From a virus: 26,153 nt of DNA. The stretch's first letter is position 1; every line of letters begins with the position of its first letter. Below the pieces are notes generated by a model, which saw nothing but the letters and a program-made list of their open reading frames with translations, ran no database searches and had not been told where the DNA came from. Position numbers and translations under genes: made by a program. Where the stretch lies: the IMG/VR virus record IMGVR_UViG_3300042559_002754, positions 1 to 26,153 of that record. The stretch is one strand, 5' to 3'. Positions 1 through 10,505 of this stretch are shown one piece after another.

Positions 1-848
1 TCGACTGTTGGCGGATTATTGTGACTAAATTCATCTTCGTCTGTATCTGGTTTTTGTTCTGGTGATCCTTTTAATCTTTGCTGTTCTGGTGATCCTTTTA
101 ATCTTTGCTGTTCTGGTGATCCTTTTAATCTTTGCTGTTCTGGTGATCCTGTTGGTTTTTGTTCTGGTGGTCCTTTTAATCTTTGCTGTTCTGGTGATTC
201 TGTTGGTTTTTGTGGTGATCCTGTTGGCTTTTGTGGAGTTGCTTCTGGTGATCCTGTTGGTTTTTGTGGTGATCCTGTGGGTTTTTGTGGAGTTGCTTCT
301 GGTGATCCTGTTGGTTTTTGTGGTGATCCTGTGGGTTTTTGAGGAGTTGCTTCTGGTGATGGTTGCGGCATTTGATCAATTTTAAACTTACCGCTTTCTA
401 TGCCGATTTTAAAGATATCTGCCAGTTTATTTTTTAAATTATTAGCTTGTTTATCGATTATGTTCATAATCCTTAGTTTTGAAATATTGGCAGGTAAATC
501 TTCTTCGTTAATTGTTTGTTCTAAATTTTCACAAATTTCTTGAAAATATTTATATTCATTAAGAGAAAATTTATAGTGACGGATTGATTCGACTGTTTGA
601 CCCAATCCTCCCAGTTTATTTGTCCACACATAAGGATTTTTTTCGTTTTCTCTTCCATGCCAAAGATTAGCAAGAGTATTTTTAAATCTATCCCACAAAC
701 TGCGCTGAGAAGAAGATCCAGAGATTAATTCTCTTTTTAAATCATTGACCCATAGATCAACAGCTTTGTTAATTGCGTTAATAATGTCAGAGTTTGGTGC
801 AACATCTTCTTTGATTAATTTTTTGTTAAAACTTCTCAGCTTAGACAT
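1..848 (-). CDS. Pro-rich tandem-repeat protein, 3' end beyond the window
   Basis: The reading frame is open from an ATG at 848 to the left window edge (282 codons, no stop). A good ribosome-binding site (AGGAGA, about 6 bases before the ATG) fixes the start. Residues 1 to about 170 look helical and charged and contain a Trp-rich stretch (LWDRF, NLWHGREN, PYVWTNKLGG). I recognise no family. From about residue 170 the protein becomes low-complexity: 18-residue units of the type SPEATPQKPTGSPQKPTG, then 9-residue units of the type SPEQQRLKG, then an acidic stretch (DTDEDEF). Such a tail is probably disordered. It is the last gene of the actin-like/duplicated-domain group and its function is unknown. 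The hydrophobic frame on the opposite strand over the repeats is a composition artefact. Confidence 0.85.
   Translation of the reverse strand, partial: MSKLRSFNKKLIKEDVAPNSDIINAINKAVDLWVNDLKRELISGSSSQRSLWDRFKNTLANLWHGRENEKNPYVWTNKLGGLGQTVESIRHYKFSLNEYKYFQEICENLEQTINEEDLPANISKLRIMNIIDKQANNLKNKLADIFKIGIESGKFKIDQMPQPSPEATPQKPTGSPQKPTGSPEATPQKPTGSPQKPTGSPEATPQKPTGSPQKPTESPEQQRLKGPPEQKPTGSPEQQRLKGSPEQQRLKGSPEQQRLKGSPEQKPDTDEDEFSHNNPPTV
57..188 (-). repeat. 27-bp tandem repeats coding for SPEQQRLKG units
   Basis: Three exact or near-exact 27-bp units lie at 57-83, 84-110 and 111-137. A 24-bp variant follows at 138-161 and a fourth 27-bp unit with one substitution at 162-188. All stay in frame with the Pro-rich gene, each 27-bp unit coding for nine residues. 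Near-identity at the DNA level indicates recent slippage or recombination rather than old protein repeats. Confidence 0.9.
189..350 (-). repeat. 54-bp tandem repeats coding for 18-residue Pro-rich units
   Basis: There are three copies, at 189-242, 243-296 and 297-350. Each codes for SPEATPQKPTGSPQKPTG with few changes (one copy has TES for TGS). Within each unit the SPQKPTG part is itself a shorter repeat, so the array is nested. The whole array is in frame with the surrounding gene. Confidence 0.9.
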
Positions 849-1437: not shown

Positions 1438-2445
1438 TTAACTTGCTGACTCTGCTGCAATTAAACATCCTCTGCTAACAGAAAATAACGGATCAGATGG
1501 TTTAATTATTTCTCCCATTTTAATCGGCAATTCTGTTGCGTTCACAACTTCCTTAAATATTTCTGTAAATCCGTTTGGTGAACTTGTTCCTCCTGCGATA
1601 ACAACATCAACTGGAGCGTCTGTTCTAACAGTTTTGCTGATATCTGAAAATCCTCTTTTAATTTCTGCAACAGTGTGTTCAATCATAATTCTATATTGCG
1701 CTTGAATAGCACGCTCGATAAGATTGGTGGGCTGTTTCATAAGATCTATTTTTGTTTTTTCTTTGTTGATGAAAGAAATGCTTTCGCCTGTAGCCTTGGC
1801 GGCTTGGCGATCAATCCAGTCTCCTGAATTAACAATTGCGAAGCTAAAAACAGGATTGCCGTACATTGCATAGCAAATGTTTACCATTCCGGCTCCGCAA
1901 GATATTCCAATTCCCGTAAAAGCTTTCTTGCCTAATTCTGCGTAAACCAAAGCTAGTGCTTCATTGATTGGGTGAGCATCTACAGTGTAGCCTGTCTCAT
2001 TCTTATAGGCTTTGAAAATTGCTGCCAGAATTCTTTGGTGATAATTGGCATCTGTTTCTTGATTTATTGCATTTGCTGGAACGCAATAATAAAGTGTTTC
2101 ACCATCTTTTTTGACGCCTTCGATTAAATTATGCATCATGATTGACATGATTTGAAATGCATCTTTTTCTTTTGGATTAACGCATCCATAAATCATTGGT
2201 CGCTTTAATTCTAATGCGCTCATTGTGTATGTCATGTTAACTGCCGCTTCGCCCAAAGCATAAGCGGTTTTGCCACGTTCTATCAAAGGCACACCAGACC
2301 TTTTCATCATATCAAACACAAATCTGTTTTCTAAAGGCATTTCAAGAAAAGCATTTATCTCACGACGATAAACAAAATTTCCTTCAGTGTCACGCTGACA
2401 GCAAACTAAATTATATGTGCCACAATCAAAACCGATTCTTCCCAT
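1438..2445 (-). CDS. Actin-like ATPase (MreB/ParM superfamily)
   Basis: The 335-residue protein shows the ASKHA/actin order of motifs. Phosphate-1 is FDCGTYNLV (residues 6-14). CVPA (121-124) matches the MreB-type CVP. A connect-1-like helix is INEALALVYAE (160-170). Phosphate-2 is GIGISCGAGM (178-187), SGDWID (207-212) matches the GGD..D of MreB, and the adenosine motif is VVIAGGTSS (281-289). SRGCLIAAE (324-332) fits the last conserved helix. By family knowledge such proteins bind ATP and often polymerise into filaments that move DNA or organise the cell. Oddly, the usual Asp of phosphate-2 (D.G.G) is Ser182 here, so hydrolysis may be altered. The start is an ATG with a strong AAAAGGAG site. 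A 77-residue gene lies just upstream and could be a partner, but nothing shows it. Confidence 0.82.
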   Translation of the reverse strand: MGRIGFDCGTYNLVCCQRDTEGNFVYRREINAFLEMPLENRFVFDMMKRSGVPLIERGKTAYALGEAAVNMTYTMSALELKRPMIYGCVNPKEKDAFQIMSIMMHNLIEGVKKDGETLYYCVPANAINQETDANYHQRILAAIFKAYKNETGYTVDAHPINEALALVYAELGKKAFTGIGISCGAGMVNICYAMYGNPVFSFAIVNSGDWIDRQAAKATGESISFINKEKTKIDLMKQPTNLIERAIQAQYRIMIEHTVAEIKRGFSDISKTVRTDAPVDVVIAGGTSSPNGFTEIFKEVVNATELPIKMGEIIKPSDPLFSVSRGCLIAAESAS

Positions 2446-2759: not shown

Positions 2760-3731
2760 TTATGTGTTGTCAGATAAAACATCTAAAGAAAATTTAGGTT
2801 TCCAAGGCCAACGAGAAAACATTTTTCTTAATCCTGTTTCAAGCATTTCTTTGCTTATTTCAGTCAGGCAAGGTTTTATTTCTTTTTTTGTTTTGCAGCA
2901 AGAATTATAGTCATAACATGGGCCACAATCCCAATCACCATTTTCAAAATGTTTTTGCACCAGCACAAAATCATAGTATTTCCCATATGTTTTGCCGTTT
3001 GCAAAAGTAAATATTCCCAACAAAGGTTTTTTTAAACCACCAGCCAAATGAAATGTAGAAGTGTCAACAGAAACGACATAATCAGCTAAAGATGTGTAAT
3101 AAATCCAGTCTTCCAAAGAAGTTTGATATATCCCTTTTATTCCAAGTTTTTTAAAATCATTATTTTCTTTTTTGTCTATCACAATAACATTACAGTCAGA
3201 CAAATAATCGATAATTATTTTGATTTGATTTGGCAACAAAGATTTGGTTGACACAGCAGATTTTGCAGCCAATATGACTATTGGCCTGTTGGGTTTTTCT
3301 ATAATTTTTTCGATTTTATTTTTATAAATTATATTTTTTTTTGCACATAAATTAAATTTCATGTCGTGATCTTTTAATTCAAAACCACACATGTGTGACC
3401 AAATGTCTGCTCTAAATTCTTTGCAGTTTTTTCCAAGTTTTGTTTCATAAATGTTTGGAGTTTTAACACATGTTTTGTATGAAACAAAAAAATCATTTTT
3501 ATCATATGTTTCAGGTGAATATATTTTGTGAACACAAGTGTGATCGGCAACAGCTTGCATATAATTGTGGTTGCATGAAAAATGTATTTCAATATCTGGA
3601 ATTAAATTTTTAACTTCGTGAAACAACATGCGATGCATAATAACATCGCCAAGACCTCCAAATTCTGAAATAAATAATATTTTATTTCTTTTTTGGTTGA
3701 ATTCCTTGAGTGACATTGCCCCTATTCTCAT
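2760..3731 (-). CDS. GT9-type (heptosyltransferase-like) glycosyltransferase
   Basis: The 323-residue protein has the GT-B layout of glycosyltransferase family 9. The N-terminal nucleotide-binding-like strand with the GGLGD loop is KILFISEFGGLGD (residues 17-29). A second Rossmann half starts at about 150 (PIVILAAKSAVSTKS). The diagnostic motif is VSVDTSTFHLAGG (220-232), matching the D-T/S-x-x-H-L-A of ADP-heptose transferases. The C-terminus has a Cys cluster (C269, C272, C278, C279, C288) seen in some GT9-like proteins, possibly structural or metal-binding. It should transfer a sugar from a nucleotide donor; acceptor and sugar are unknown. The start could be ATG 3731 or ATG 3716 (AGGGG lies just before the latter). 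It directly follows the caspase-like gene. Confidence 0.82.
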   Translation of the reverse strand: MRIGAMSLKEFNQKRNKILFISEFGGLGDVIMHRMLFHEVKNLIPDIEIHFSCNHNYMQAVADHTCVHKIYSPETYDKNDFFVSYKTCVKTPNIYETKLGKNCKEFRADIWSHMCGFELKDHDMKFNLCAKKNIIYKNKIEKIIEKPNRPIVILAAKSAVSTKSLLPNQIKIIIDYLSDCNVIVIDKKENNDFKKLGIKGIYQTSLEDWIYYTSLADYVVSVDTSTFHLAGGLKKPLLGIFTFANGKTYGKYYDFVLVQKHFENGDWDCGPCYDYNSCCKTKKEIKPCLTEISKEMLETGLRKMFSRWPWKPKFSLDVLSDNT

Positions 3732-3743
3732 TTTTTTAAAGAG

Positions 3744-4697
3744 TTAGTTGGGCAGTAAAATATAATCTTTATTGAAAATTTCCCCATGTTGATCAACAAC
3801 GGGTATTTCTTTGGCTGGTAAAGAATCAAAAAGAGGTTCTTCTAACATAGATTCTGGAATTATTTTATACATTGGTTGTTGACGCAAATCACTGAATAAA
3901 TCAGCAAATTTCTTCAAAAATTGTGCATTACTGATTTTTTTATTTGCCAAGGCATAAGCATATGCTTTTTTAAATCTTATTGGAAATTCTGTTCTGGTAG
4001 AAAAATTTGCAGCATTAACAGAACATATTACCAGAAGTTGATCGTAAGCCTTATCGTCTTCTCCATATTTCATTTCACCATCTTTTTCAAAAAAATCAAA
4101 AAATGGTGTTTGTTTTTCGCTGCATTTTGTTGGGAATTCTGCTAAACCTGTTTTTATATTTTTTAAAAGTTTAGCGCCACCTTCAAATCCTTCATTAATT
4201 GCTCCTTCCGCATGACATGTGTCAACCAGAACAATTAATCTTTTTACCTTTTTACCTTTTTTAATACTTTCTAAAACTTTACTAAATTTAAGATCGCCTC
4301 CAGCAGCTGTCATGCTGAAATATTTTCCTTCGCCTCCACCATGACTGTTAAAATAAAGCAGCAATGTTCCATCATTGTCAATTTTTTTAGAAATATTGGT
4401 TATTTTTTCATAAATTTCTTTTGATGATTTGTTGTGGAATGCTTCAACTTGAAAACCAAGATTTCCATCTTTAAAAACACTTTGCATCATATCAATGCTT
4501 TCTTTTCTTCCTTCTTCATTTGTCATTGTGAAAAGAAATGCATAATTATTTTCTTTGTTGTAAATGTCATAAGGCAGTGTTACAATTATTTTTTCTTGTT
4601 TTTTTGATAATGTTTTTTCTTCTTGCTTTGATACAAAACAAGTGATGCCGATTAAGGCAATTAAAAATGAAAAAGCTACAAAAAAATTTCTTTTCAT
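3744..4697 (-). CDS. Caspase-like cysteine peptidase (C14/metacaspase type) with N-terminal membrane segment
   Basis: The 317-residue protein has the caspase-fold signature. The strand-His motif is LLLYFNSHGGGEG, with catalytic His119. The strand-Cys motif is LIVLVDTCHAEG, with catalytic Cys161. After that comes LLVICSVNAANFSTRTEFP and then KKAYAYAL, which matches the 'stop-gap' strand and following helix of C14 peptidases. An N-terminal charged MKRN plus a hydrophobic stretch (about residues 5-22) makes a signal peptide or membrane anchor; the Cys at 20 (GITC) is a poor lipobox. There is no obvious substrate-recruitment or partner domain; the C-terminal 40 residues are unassigned. Start ATG 4697 has no good Shine-Dalgarno; the only candidate, GGCGG, is inside a hairpin. 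It sits between a small beta-rich protein and the GT9-type gene. Substrate and role are unknown; anti-host, anti-defence and virion-processing roles are all open. Confidence 0.85.
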   Translation of the reverse strand: MKRNFFVAFSFLIALIGITCFVSKQEEKTLSKKQEKIIVTLPYDIYNKENNYAFLFTMTNEEGRKESIDMMQSVFKDGNLGFQVEAFHNKSSKEIYEKITNISKKIDNDGTLLLYFNSHGGGEGKYFSMTAAGGDLKFSKVLESIKKGKKVKRLIVLVDTCHAEGAINEGFEGGAKLLKNIKTGLAEFPTKCSEKQTPFFDFFEKDGEMKYGEDDKAYDQLLVICSVNAANFSTRTEFPIRFKKAYAYALANKKISNAQFLKKFADLFSDLRQQPMYKIIPESMLEEPLFDSLPAKEIPVVDQHGEIFNKDYILLPN

Positions 4698-4706
4698 ATT
4701 TTTTTG

Positions 4707-4727
4707 CCGCCGATTTTTAGTCGGCGG
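4707..4727 (-). promoter_or_regulatory. GC-rich hairpin covering the ribosome-binding site of the caspase-like gene
   Basis: CCGCCGA at 4707-4713 is a perfect inverted repeat of TCGGCGG at 4721-4727, with a 7-base A-rich loop on the minus strand. It is strikingly GC-rich in an AT-rich region. The 3' arm ends 9 bases (CAAAAAAAT) before the ATG at 4697 and holds the only purine-rich SD candidate (GGCGG). No T-run follows on either strand, so a simple terminator is unlikely; translational masking is my inference. Confidence 0.5.
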
Positions 4728-4748: not shown

Positions 4749-5327
4749 TCAGCTTAGGCAAACACTTTTAACTGAAACAATAACTTGAACTGTTTGATCG
4801 TTGCCACTTGAATTATCGAATTCAAGTTTTGTTACTGCCAAGTCTCCATAATTGAAAACTTGAGTATCACCTGCTTTAAGATCAAAAATTGCGCCAGCCA
4901 TGCCGTTCAATTTAACACGAATGTCACCACCAGAAGGATCTACTGATGAAATCTGTACGAAATTTGCAGGCGAACCAGTATCACCAACAATATCAGCAAC
5001 ATTGTCGGCAAATGCATCGCCATCATTAACAGAAAAATTGTAAACATTTGGATAATTGTTTTCTTCTTCAATTTCACTGTAAATTGAGCCATCATCAGTA
5101 ATAACTTCAATGAAAGCCTGATCAAGAGCAATATTAGGATATGCGAACTTTTTCCAATAATTACAATCTGTGAATGTTTCTCCGTCAAATAATTTGCGAT
5201 AAATTTTCTTTGGTCCAGTCACATAAACTGTACGCTGAACCGAAGTGTCAAATTTAAGTCTTGTTATTGGATTGATGTCTAAAACACCTTGCTGGGAATT
5301 GTTTAGCTTAACTCTGAATACACTCAT
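4749..5327 (-). CDS. Putative virion structural protein, beta-rich
   Basis: The 192-residue protein has no signal peptide or membrane segment. The N-terminal half (to about residue 100) has alternating strands and an acidic stretch (SEIEEENNYPN). The C-terminal 70 residues (from about IRVKLNGMAG to VQVIVSVKS) look like a small beta-sandwich, with strands separated by Gly/Asp/Asn turns (FDLKAGDTQVFNYGDLAV). This is typical of small phage decoration, fibre or neck proteins, but I do not recognise a specific family. The start ATG has a strong AAGGAG site. It lies between a degenerate GT9-like gene and the caspase-like gene and could be the most abundant product of that stretch. Confidence 0.7.
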   Translation of the reverse strand: MSVFRVKLNNSQQGVLDINPITRLKFDTSVQRTVYVTGPKKIYRKLFDGETFTDCNYWKKFAYPNIALDQAFIEVITDDGSIYSEIEEENNYPNVYNFSVNDGDAFADNVADIVGDTGSPANFVQISSVDPSGGDIRVKLNGMAGAIFDLKAGDTQVFNYGDLAVTKLEFDNSSGNDQTVQVIVSVKSVCLS

Positions 5328-7700: not shown

Positions 7701-10505
7701 TCAAGCAGGCTTATTACATGGGACTAATGCAAAACATGGTTGATCACCATTTTCTCCTGTTAATTTTGTGAAGTCTAAATTTATTTTCACATCAATTGGC
7801 GCACCACGATAAACCATTTCTATTTCAGGTTTTTCTGGCAACACAAGTTTTATCTCACTCGGCGCACCAACAAGTTCAATAGAGGAAGGAATGCCGACAA
7901 CTTGAATTTTATCAGGAATTCCACTAGCATCAATTTTTATTGATGGCATAAAACTCGGCATTTCAAGCTTTATTGAACTCGGCAACCCAGATGTGTCAAA
8001 TCTTATTGTTGAAGGCAAATTACTGGAAATCAACTCAATAGTTGATGGCACACCAGCAGCGTTTATTTTTATTTCTGTTGGTATTGGCGTTTCTGGTCCC
8101 AAAATTTTAATATCAGGAATTTTTATTTTTTCTATCCTGATCATTGTGGGAATGTCATGTATTATTTTCACATCTGGTATTTCTGGCACCTTTATTATAA
8201 TTTCTGAAGGTATGCCAATATCTTGCGATTGAATTTCAACATTTTCAAACGGCGAATAAATACTCTCTGAATTGAAAAAATCTGTAGGAGCAGAAAACTT
8301 AGGAGTAGTACTTGGCGCAGTTGGACATTGAACGGTAACAACACAACTGACAGTTGGAGGCGTACCAAACTGAACCAATGGAAATGATACAGGTCCAAAA
8401 CCAACAGGCCCAAGAGTTACTGGCCCAAAAGTAATTGTTGCTGGTATATTGGGATTGTTTGAGAATTTAATTGTGTTGGGTATTGCTGGTGTTGGACCAG
8501 TAATATTAATCGTTCTTGGTATAATAGGGCCAGTAACTACGAGCGGAATGGTGTTGGGCAATGGATTGGCTCCGAATCCAATAACTGTTGGTATATTTGG
8601 AGCACCAAGGAATGTAATCACATTTGGAAATGTCGGCGCTGGTCCGAAGAAAATTGCATTTGGAAATGTCGGAGCCGGTCCAAAGTTAATTGCATTTGGT
8701 ATAGGTGGCAAAGGACCAAATGTAATCGGTGGAATAGGTGGCACATTCACATTAATGTCTGGAATAGTCGGCATATTCACGCCAATATCTGGAATAGTCG
8801 GCATATTCACTTTAATGTCTGGAATATTTGGCGGAGGTCCAAATTTAATGTCTGGAATAGGTGGTGGTGGTGCGAATTTAATATCTGGAAATTCCGGCAC
8901 GTCTATTCCTATTTTTGGAAATTCCGGCACGTTTATCTCTATTTTTGGAAATTCCGGCACGTTTATCTCTATTTTTGGGAATGTTATGCTGGGAAAAGAA
9001 AAACTGGGTATTGAAAAACTGGGCATTGAAAAGCTGGGAATACTAATTGGCGGAATACTAATTGGCGGAAAATTAAAGTTTGGAACATCAAACTTGACAT
9101 TCGGAAATGTAATGGTTGGAACATCAAACTTAACATTCGGAAATGTAATGTTTGGAACATTAAATTTAATGTCAGGAAAAGTTATGCTCGGAATATCAAA
9201 CTTGACATTTGGAAATGTAATGCTTGGAACATCAAACTTGACAGTGGGAAATGTAATGTTTGGAACATCAAATTTAATGTTGGGAAAATTAATGTTTGGA
9301 ACATCAAATTTAATGTTGGGAAAATTAATTTCTGGAACAACAATTGAGATAGTAGGTGGAATATTTGGAATTGGTGTAAAGCTAACAATACTTGGAAAAC
9401 TTGTGCTTGGAAAACCGGTGATCGTGCTAGGTATGTTTATTTCTGGTATAAAAATTGTACTTGGTATTGAAAAACTAGGAATAACAAAACTAACTACAGG
9501 TGGAATATTTGGAAATGGTGTAAAACTAACAAGACTAGGAAAGCTTGGTAATGGTGTAAAGCTAACAAGACTAGGAATTGTTATGTTAGGAGTTATGCTT
9601 ATTATAGATGGAATGTTAATTGGCCCAATAGGCCCAATATCCAAACAAGGAAACACAATAGGTGGTATTTGTGGCGTTAACGATGGTATTGGAATATTTG
9701 GGAAAATTACAGGAGGTATGCTTGGCAAAGTTGGAATTGGAATCTCAAGACCAGTTGTTGTTGCTTGAGGAGTAGGCTCAGTGACTACATCTCTTTTTAT
9801 TGGTGTTTGAATCACTGTGCATTTGCTGTTTGATAAGCTCAAAACAGGATCAACTGTTGAATTCAAAGAATATCGATGTGTTCCACTAGTCGTTGTTGTT
9901 GTGTATTCGCCGTCTCCAAAATCTAATCTGAAACTTGTGAAAACACCTGTTATTGTTAATGTGTATTGAGCCAATATGCCTGTTACTGAATTATTTTCTA
10001 TAATATAAAAATCAAAAACCACATCAGGACATGAAAAATCATCAAATATAACATCAAGTTGCTGAAGGTTTCTGATTCTCCAGTCAAGAGTTTCTTTGTC
10101 TTCTGTGTTGTTTGATCCAATAAATTTTTCTGTTTTTATAATAGCTTGCATCAATTGATTGTGATGTTCTGCAATTACAAATCCTCTTACTTCAGCGCCT
10201 GCTGAATTCTTTTTTGTGTGAATTCCGCCTAAATTACGAGTGCATCGTTTGAATTTATTTATTTTTCCATTACTGTCTTTTTCTACAGAACTATAATAAA
10301 AAAGTTCTCCTTCTATATTTGCATATCCATTTTCAGCCCATATTTCATCTGCATTTTCCGCAACAGGCTTGATGGAAATTTCCTCTGACCAAGGCAGATT
10401 TTCCTCCGTAGTGATTGTTTCTGATGTGTTATGCACCATAAACAATGTTTCATCACTGTCGTAATTTTTAGGATAAATAGGTATAGGCGGAAAATAGTTT
10501 GCCAC
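7701..10505 (-). CDS. Giant fibre-like protein: shared N-terminal module, PKD-like domain and Pro/Ile-periodic shaft
   Basis: 934 residues. The start is GTG 10505 (GAGGA upstream), supported by alignment of MANYFPPIP with the starts of the two upstream paralogues. Residues 1-130 are the shared module, ending in AEHHNQLMQAIIKTEKFIG (112-130). Residues about 155-230 are a reduced PKD-like domain with FRLDFGDGEY. Residues about 255-715 are a shaft in which Pro recurs every 10-12 residues, with alternating Ile/Val/Phe. The core is seven units like PNITFPNVKFDV. A linker with two Cys follows (716-765), then a second shaft with units like GLPSSIKLE (765-900). The end is GENGDQPCFALVPCNKPA. The pattern suggests an extended, perhaps trimeric, fibre shaft on the virion. 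It lies downstream of an intrinsic terminator, so it probably has its own promoter. Confidence 0.85.
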   Translation of the reverse strand: MANYFPPIPIYPKNYDSDETLFMVHNTSETITTEENLPWSEEISIKPVAENADEIWAENGYANIEGELFYYSSVEKDSNGKINKFKRCTRNLGGIHTKKNSAGAEVRGFVIAEHHNQLMQAIIKTEKFIGSNNTEDKETLDWRIRNLQQLDVIFDDFSCPDVVFDFYIIENNSVTGILAQYTLTITGVFTSFRLDFGDGEYTTTTTSGTHRYSLNSTVDPVLSLSNSKCTVIQTPIKRDVVTEPTPQATTTGLEIPIPTLPSIPPVIFPNIPIPSLTPQIPPIVFPCLDIGPIGPINIPSIISITPNITIPSLVSFTPLPSFPSLVSFTPFPNIPPVVSFVIPSFSIPSTIFIPEINIPSTITGFPSTSFPSIVSFTPIPNIPPTISIVVPEINFPNIKFDVPNINFPNIKFDVPNITFPTVKFDVPSITFPNVKFDIPSITFPDIKFNVPNITFPNVKFDVPTITFPNVKFDVPNFNFPPISIPPISIPSFSMPSFSIPSFSFPSITFPKIEINVPEFPKIEINVPEFPKIGIDVPEFPDIKFAPPPPIPDIKFGPPPNIPDIKVNMPTIPDIGVNMPTIPDINVNVPPIPPITFGPLPPIPNAINFGPAPTFPNAIFFGPAPTFPNVITFLGAPNIPTVIGFGANPLPNTIPLVVTGPIIPRTINITGPTPAIPNTIKFSNNPNIPATITFGPVTLGPVGFGPVSFPLVQFGTPPTVSCVVTVQCPTAPSTTPKFSAPTDFFNSESIYSPFENVEIQSQDIGIPSEIIIKVPEIPDVKIIHDIPTMIRIEKIKIPDIKILGPETPIPTEIKINAAGVPSTIELISSNLPSTIRFDTSGLPSSIKLEMPSFMPSIKIDASGIPDKIQVVGIPSSIELVGAPSEIKLVLPEKPEIEMVYRGAPIDVKINLDFTKLTGENGDQPCFALVPCNKPA
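8892..8981 (-). repeat. 30-bp tandem repeats coding for FPKIEINVPE units
   Basis: Three in-frame units code for FPKIEINVPE, FPKIEINVPE and FPKIGIDVPE (residues 509-538 of the shaft protein); a diverged fourth (FPDIKFAPPP) follows. The first two are nearly identical in DNA, pointing to recent duplication. Confidence 0.85.
9084..9335 (-). repeat. 36-bp tandem repeats coding for seven 12-residue shaft units
   Basis: Seven consecutive in-frame units (residues 391-474) follow P-x-I-x-F-P-x-(I/V)-K-F-(D/N)-(V/I), for example PEINFPNIKFDV and PTITFPNVKFDV. The DNA copies are similar but not identical. Length change by whole 36-bp units would keep the frame and change shaft length. Confidence 0.9.

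Follow-up and report, generated by a model that had tools for sequence, protein, structure and literature searches.

What does a phage gain from a caspase-like peptidase encoded amid its structural genes? This question is raised by a 26,153-nucleotide stretch of viral DNA (the complete IMG/VR record IMGVR_UViG_3300042559_002754, here called the window), in which an earlier note, made from the sequence alone, had recognised a stand-alone, membrane-anchored caspase-like peptidase among the fibre and sugar genes of a phage late region. The core of that observation is confirmed and reaches further than was claimed. The open reading frame encodes 317 amino acids and occupies positions 3744-4697, as the note had it; the strand, which it had left out, is the minus strand, with the ATG at 4697.

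The protein matches the Pfam Peptidase_C14 profile (PF00656) with 41.4 bits against a cut-off of 21.4, and at an E-value of 1.8e-10 this match is not due to chance; 17 of 20 family members match C14 at E <= 0.01. Matches in NCBIfam were weak and restricted to generic caspases, the match to the 'caspase' entry of PADLOC was weak too (E 0.014) and a PHROGs search found no match. An AlphaFold model built with an alignment of 20 family members (20 rows) has a mean pLDDT of 75.8 and a pTM of 0.72, with core blocks above 90; a model from the single sequence was poor (pLDDT 43) and was discarded. When submitted to Foldseek, the model matched caspases and their relatives with a probability of 1.00: procaspase-1 was the top match, and GSU0716, MALT1, yeast Yca1 and T. 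brucei MCA2 were among the others. TM-scores of 0.4-0.5 by query length show that the core is shared and the loops are divergent, and the downstream C14 strands that had been read from the sequence are present in the model (residues 151-159, 218-225 and 276-280). Among viral models, Foldseek matched the caspases of giant eukaryotic viruses (ascovirus, Orpheovirus, Pithovirus); these have the virus-encoded caspase fold in common with the phage protein, but identity is about 10-15% and their hosts are eukaryotic. From the solved members of C14, with which it shares the profile match, the His/Cys dyad and the fold, the phage family differs by its export signal and by motifs of its own (LFTMTxExGR and QQPxYK), at 10-16% identity. 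The profile, the modelled fold and the invariant dyad all back the original assignment, and on the predicted structure the protein is a caspase-fold (clan CD) cysteine peptidase, whose catalytic activity is predicted.

Both catalytic residues were placed correctly by the earlier note: His119 in FNSHGGG (4341-4343, minus strand) and Cys161 in VDTCHAEG (4215-4217, minus strand) are invariant in 20 distinct sequences, and the pair, whose consistent loss from homologues would have spoken against a peptidase, is kept in every aligned member. Also invariant in the 20 sequences are Asp159 (4221-4223, minus strand), Glu61 (4515-4517, minus strand), Arg64, the triple glycine after the histidine and about 50 other columns. 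An acidic S1 pocket selects Lys or Arg at P1, as in metacaspases and MALT1. In a phmmer alignment, Glu61 falls on the caspase arginine (R in R-x-G) that binds the P1 aspartate (MTNEEGR in the query, LKTRNGT in the match), and Asp159 occupies the position of the caspase glutamine in QAC. From these two invariant acidic residues we infer a P1 preference for Lys or Arg, not Asp. The Asp-binding S1 of caspases proper (C14A), with its arginine after strand 1 and the glutamine of QACxG, is absent; what the family shares with true Asp-specific caspases is the fold, whereas it has Glu61 and Asp159 at these positions and is predicted to be exported. The acidic S1 of metacaspases and prokaryotic orthocaspases (C14B), with an Asp two residues before the catalytic Cys, is predicted here too, with D159 invariant. 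Compared with the C14B signatures SGHG and DSCHSG, the motifs NSHGGG and DTCHAxG are similar but altered; the phage family is moreover encoded by huge phages and no close bacterial relative was found. Huge phages also have a second, metacaspase-like C14 subfamily, represented by L128:1498-2256 (a 527-kb phage), which adjoins glycosyltransferase-like genes, and by LR745208.1:345811-346599 (485 kb). It has the phage-borne C14 domain in common with the window family but is separate from it: L128 has no signal peptide and a canonical metacaspase-like N-terminus.

Residues 1-24 of the window protein (4626-4697, minus strand) form a putative export signal or membrane anchor, consisting of MKRN followed by 18 hydrophobic residues with no lipobox and a weak cleavage site. 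This is the hydrophobic segment seen earlier (about residues 5-22), and in the model it is a helix (residues 3-24). In every family member a short n-region opens the sequence and is followed by a hydrophobic stretch, which in most ends with an A/S/G-x-A/S/G site immediately ahead of the conserved mature start (for example SAAAAA/QEKTG, ...AQ/EKTG, FA/QDKTG and FA/EVKETG, the slash marking the site). A lipobox (LILGC) is found in one member only, L140, and in the window protein and L136 the hydrophobic segment is longer and lacks a convincing site. A hydropathy scan of the family members found no further segment of trans-membrane strength. By these rules of hydropathy, charge and cleavage site, the label 'membrane-anchored' holds at most for the window protein and a small number of others: a cleavable Sec signal is predicted for most relatives and one has a lipobox, so the shared trait appears to be export and not anchoring, with anchoring a possible state of the window protein. 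Bacterial C14 proteins with a single N-terminal trans-membrane or signal helix have been described (46 sequences, PMC3501461).

Two IMG/VR scans seeded with the family alignment identified 25 further contigs with full-length or near-full-length homologues, about 20 distinct proteins, with 39-51% identity to the window protein; one more segment (the truncated L151) has 55%. A C14 search of 50 related-phage records returned the window's twin, L002, plus homologues at other positions. L002 contains the same 5.7 kb with zero mismatches and one 27-nt repeat indel; short tandem repeats with PQKPTGSPEQ-type coding (window 46-364, L002 5357-6245) differ by one 27-nt unit between these two assemblies of the phage. 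Of 23 carrier records tested, 14 have the clade's baseplate protein and 8 have the volactin described below, the remainder being partial. The carriers belong to, or would fit into, a single huge-phage clade, to which the uncultured 595-kb phage LR756511 is related. Among the large relatives the gene is patchy: for example, LR756511 and G010 (533 kb) lack it and G046 (459 kb) has it. Searches of INPHARED and PLSDB by tblastn yielded no family member, nor did two pattern scans of 84,980 GTDB species, whose sole match was a 64-residue generic C14 in a Rhodobacteraceae genome; these scans need conserved peptides and distant cellular relatives could escape them. The open-licence literature yielded no account of such phage-encoded caspases, and the word 'caspase' is absent from the main text of a 2021 jumbo-phage survey, a 2020 huge-phage paper and a 2026 review, although such absence is no proof.

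The genomic surroundings agree with the original description. The same-strand neighbours of the caspase gene include three PKD-domain or repeat proteins, a baseplate J/wedge protein, a GT9-like glycosyltransferase (2760-3731, minus strand; PF01075, E 9.4e-6), an MptE/DUF115-like protein and a Volactin-type actin homologue (1438-2445, minus strand; PF25216, E 1.1e-63): it is thus flanked by fibre-type and sugar genes, and the late operon is kept in more than 100 related loci. The presence of a volactin-type actin in a late structural operon is itself conserved across at least 50 huge-phage loci in IMG/VR. Over its whole length the window baseplate protein shares 47% identity with its LR756511 counterpart, and the operon of LR756511 has the same order with the caspase missing; given both, the window most likely represents part of the genome of a huge phage in the LR756511 clade. 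Two further observations concern these phages: window positions 7701-10505 encode a protein of 934 aa whose long proline-rich repeats are of the FPNIKFDVPNI type, the repeat in the LR756511 homologue being a different one (FDCISFCHPPS), and the portal-like protein of LR756511 (L003:1015-3588) contains an apparent intein (C-VAGDTLIST ... VMHNC).

In LR756511, a 192-aa phage protein (here MSVF; 4749-5327, minus strand, in the window) is directly followed by the GT9-like gene, and these two form the conserved left and right boundaries of a slot. The gap between them is at most 114 nt in 83 of 103 loci with this gene order (some contigs counted twice) and 64 nt in the nearest relatives without the caspase. 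In the window the caspase fills it, 51 nt after MSVF and 12 nt before GT9. A strong, G+C-rich hairpin of 9 pairs (4707-4727) is located between MSVF and the caspase, 9 nt upstream of the start codon and with an A-run on the coding strand; it could mask the ribosome-binding region or serve the other strand as a terminator. Those nearest relatives have a hairpin as well, inside their 64-nt gap. The earlier note had suggested looking for phage orthologues in the same gene context: homologues do exist, but only the window and L002 have the caspase between MSVF and GT9. The distant member L158 has it directly behind an MSVF homologue, with a 4-nt overlap and different genes downstream, and the other carriers have it in unrelated neighbourhoods. 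We rejected the idea that the slot is a dedicated defence island, because the cargo of other phages at this position is unrelated (DnaJ-like, LAGLIDADG-like and a MotA/ExbB trio). In one 527-kb phage (L103:8707-10519), a MotA/TolQ/ExbB-like gene and two membrane-protein genes lie between MSVF and GT9, an arrangement that recalls a proton-channel defence module. The caspase gene is cargo of patchy occurrence: in the window it occupies a short gap in a conserved late operon, and elsewhere it usually lies at other sites.

Neighbours that recur in the other carriers, counted over loci that are not independent of each other, include an Astacin-like HExxH protein (9 loci, adjacent every time), a patatin-like phospholipase (10 loci), the mechanosensitive channel MscL (6 loci: L141:9346-9813, L136, L142, L144, L147 and L148) and a trypsin-like serine protease with a signal peptide at most four genes away (4 loci, for example L147:7255-7983 and L136:6862-7611); a thioredoxin-like protein with a signal peptide also occurs nearby and lies directly upstream in L154. 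A simple signal-peptide filter applied to one 381-kb carrier (L196-L214) marked 21 of about 510 ORFs, namely the caspase and about 20 further proteins that include trypsin-like, thioredoxin-like and CAP/SCP-like ones. It therefore appears that caspase-carrying huge phages encode many exported proteins. Clustering of the exported genes around the caspase was rejected, as just one of its 16 nearest neighbours in this one genome was marked, and the context consequently names no pathway.

Purifying selection on the family is strong, with dN/dS between 0.035 and 0.14 in close pairs. Trees of the caspase and of the baseplate protein from the same 12 phages both recover a five-member clade, L146,(L145,L157,(L153,L156)), and the pair L141/L142; the deeper branches of the caspase tree are without resolution and its end branches are roughly twofold longer (median 0.49 versus 0.22 for the baseplate protein). 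This combination of a matching subclade, unclear deep branches and long ends indicates that the gene has probably been resident in the clade for a long time, was mostly passed on with the phage within the five-member subclade, and was lost or moved elsewhere.

Which function would fit an exported, conserved but patchily distributed peptidase? With moderate confidence, we favour cleavage of envelope proteins of the infected cell in a way that protects the infection; we infer both the substrate and the purpose. Export and an intact dyad point to proteolysis outside the cytoplasm and the patchiness speaks against a core role in structure or lysis; for jumbo phages, it has been argued that patchily distributed peptidases target host proteins (PMC7824862). 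Together, these points favour cleavage of host envelope proteins and leave a helper function in lysis as the second choice. The enzyme would be made in the host during infection, in the window phage probably along with the late structural operon. Sec would move it to the periplasm or to the outer face of the inner membrane, a scheme that assumes a diderm host. There its N-terminal helix may keep it tethered in the window phage; in others, signal peptidase may release it or it may be lipidated. The Cys161/His119 dyad would then cut envelope or periplasmic proteins, after Lys or Arg and not after Asp if the acidic S1 pocket of Glu61 and Asp159 is read correctly. The most likely use would be the removal of proteins from the cell surface or periplasm on which competing phages depend or which envelope-located host defences employ. 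More tentatively, and short of an even chance in our judgement, the huge-phage clade may have its own exported caspase family with basic P1 specificity that remodels the envelope against competing phages or envelope-located immunity.

An exported protease could also weaken the envelope late in infection, by cutting peptidoglycan-linked or outer-membrane-anchoring proteins and complementing endolysin and spanins. The position in a late operon in the window and the envelope-acting MscL and patatin-like genes in the wider neighbourhood of other carriers would suit this, but the counts of these two genes cover carriers only and come from the non-independent loci, no endolysin, holin or spanin gene is adjacent to the caspase in the window, and most relatives must lyse their hosts without a caspase; we regard a lysis helper as unlikely. 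The earlier note had also proposed that the enzyme might process fibres. It does sit among fibre-type PKD proteins in the window, and the same 192-aa protein directly precedes it in the window and in L158. Processing of virions or neighbouring tail proteins is nevertheless improbable, given that all members have the export signal, that nearly all of the more than 100 related loci keep the fibre operon without the gene, and that the gene lies elsewhere in the genome in most carriers.

Caspases are known defence effectors, and the fold together with the weak PADLOC match might suggest a captured bacterial defence or suicide effector of the CBASS or CRISPR type, used against rival phages inside the cell. 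This is very improbable: an exported protein would work outside the cytoplasm, the GTDB representatives yielded no family member in the two pattern scans, the PADLOC E-value is only 0.014, and no sensor, nucleotidyltransferase, Cas or TPR partner is present among the window genes, in line with the 'stand-alone' of the original description. The least credible reading is that the enzyme is a clan CD transpeptidase or ligase, which would join a protein of the phage or the host to the envelope instead of degrading it. Legumain and GPI-transamidase (C13) have the clan CD fold, HGG and DTC motifs and an exported or ER-facing location in common with the phage family, 12 of 20 members have sub-threshold matches to the C13 profile, and among single PDB sequences the family profile matches GPI-anchor transamidase best (E 0.005). 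However, the window protein scores 20.3 bits with the C13 legumain profile and does not reach its cut-off of 22.8, and Foldseek ranked caspases and metacaspases first and legumain only 39th.

Prokaryotic caspase-like proteases have been studied as host cell-death and defence effectors. If cleavage of envelope proteins by the exported phage peptidase is true, it would be a caspase-fold weapon that acts outside the bacterial cytoplasm and is encoded by the virus and not by the host. With a virus-owned, exported caspase family, this type of enzyme would also serve the opposing party in the conflict, and in a different compartment; the family further supports the view that huge phages have a sizeable secretome.
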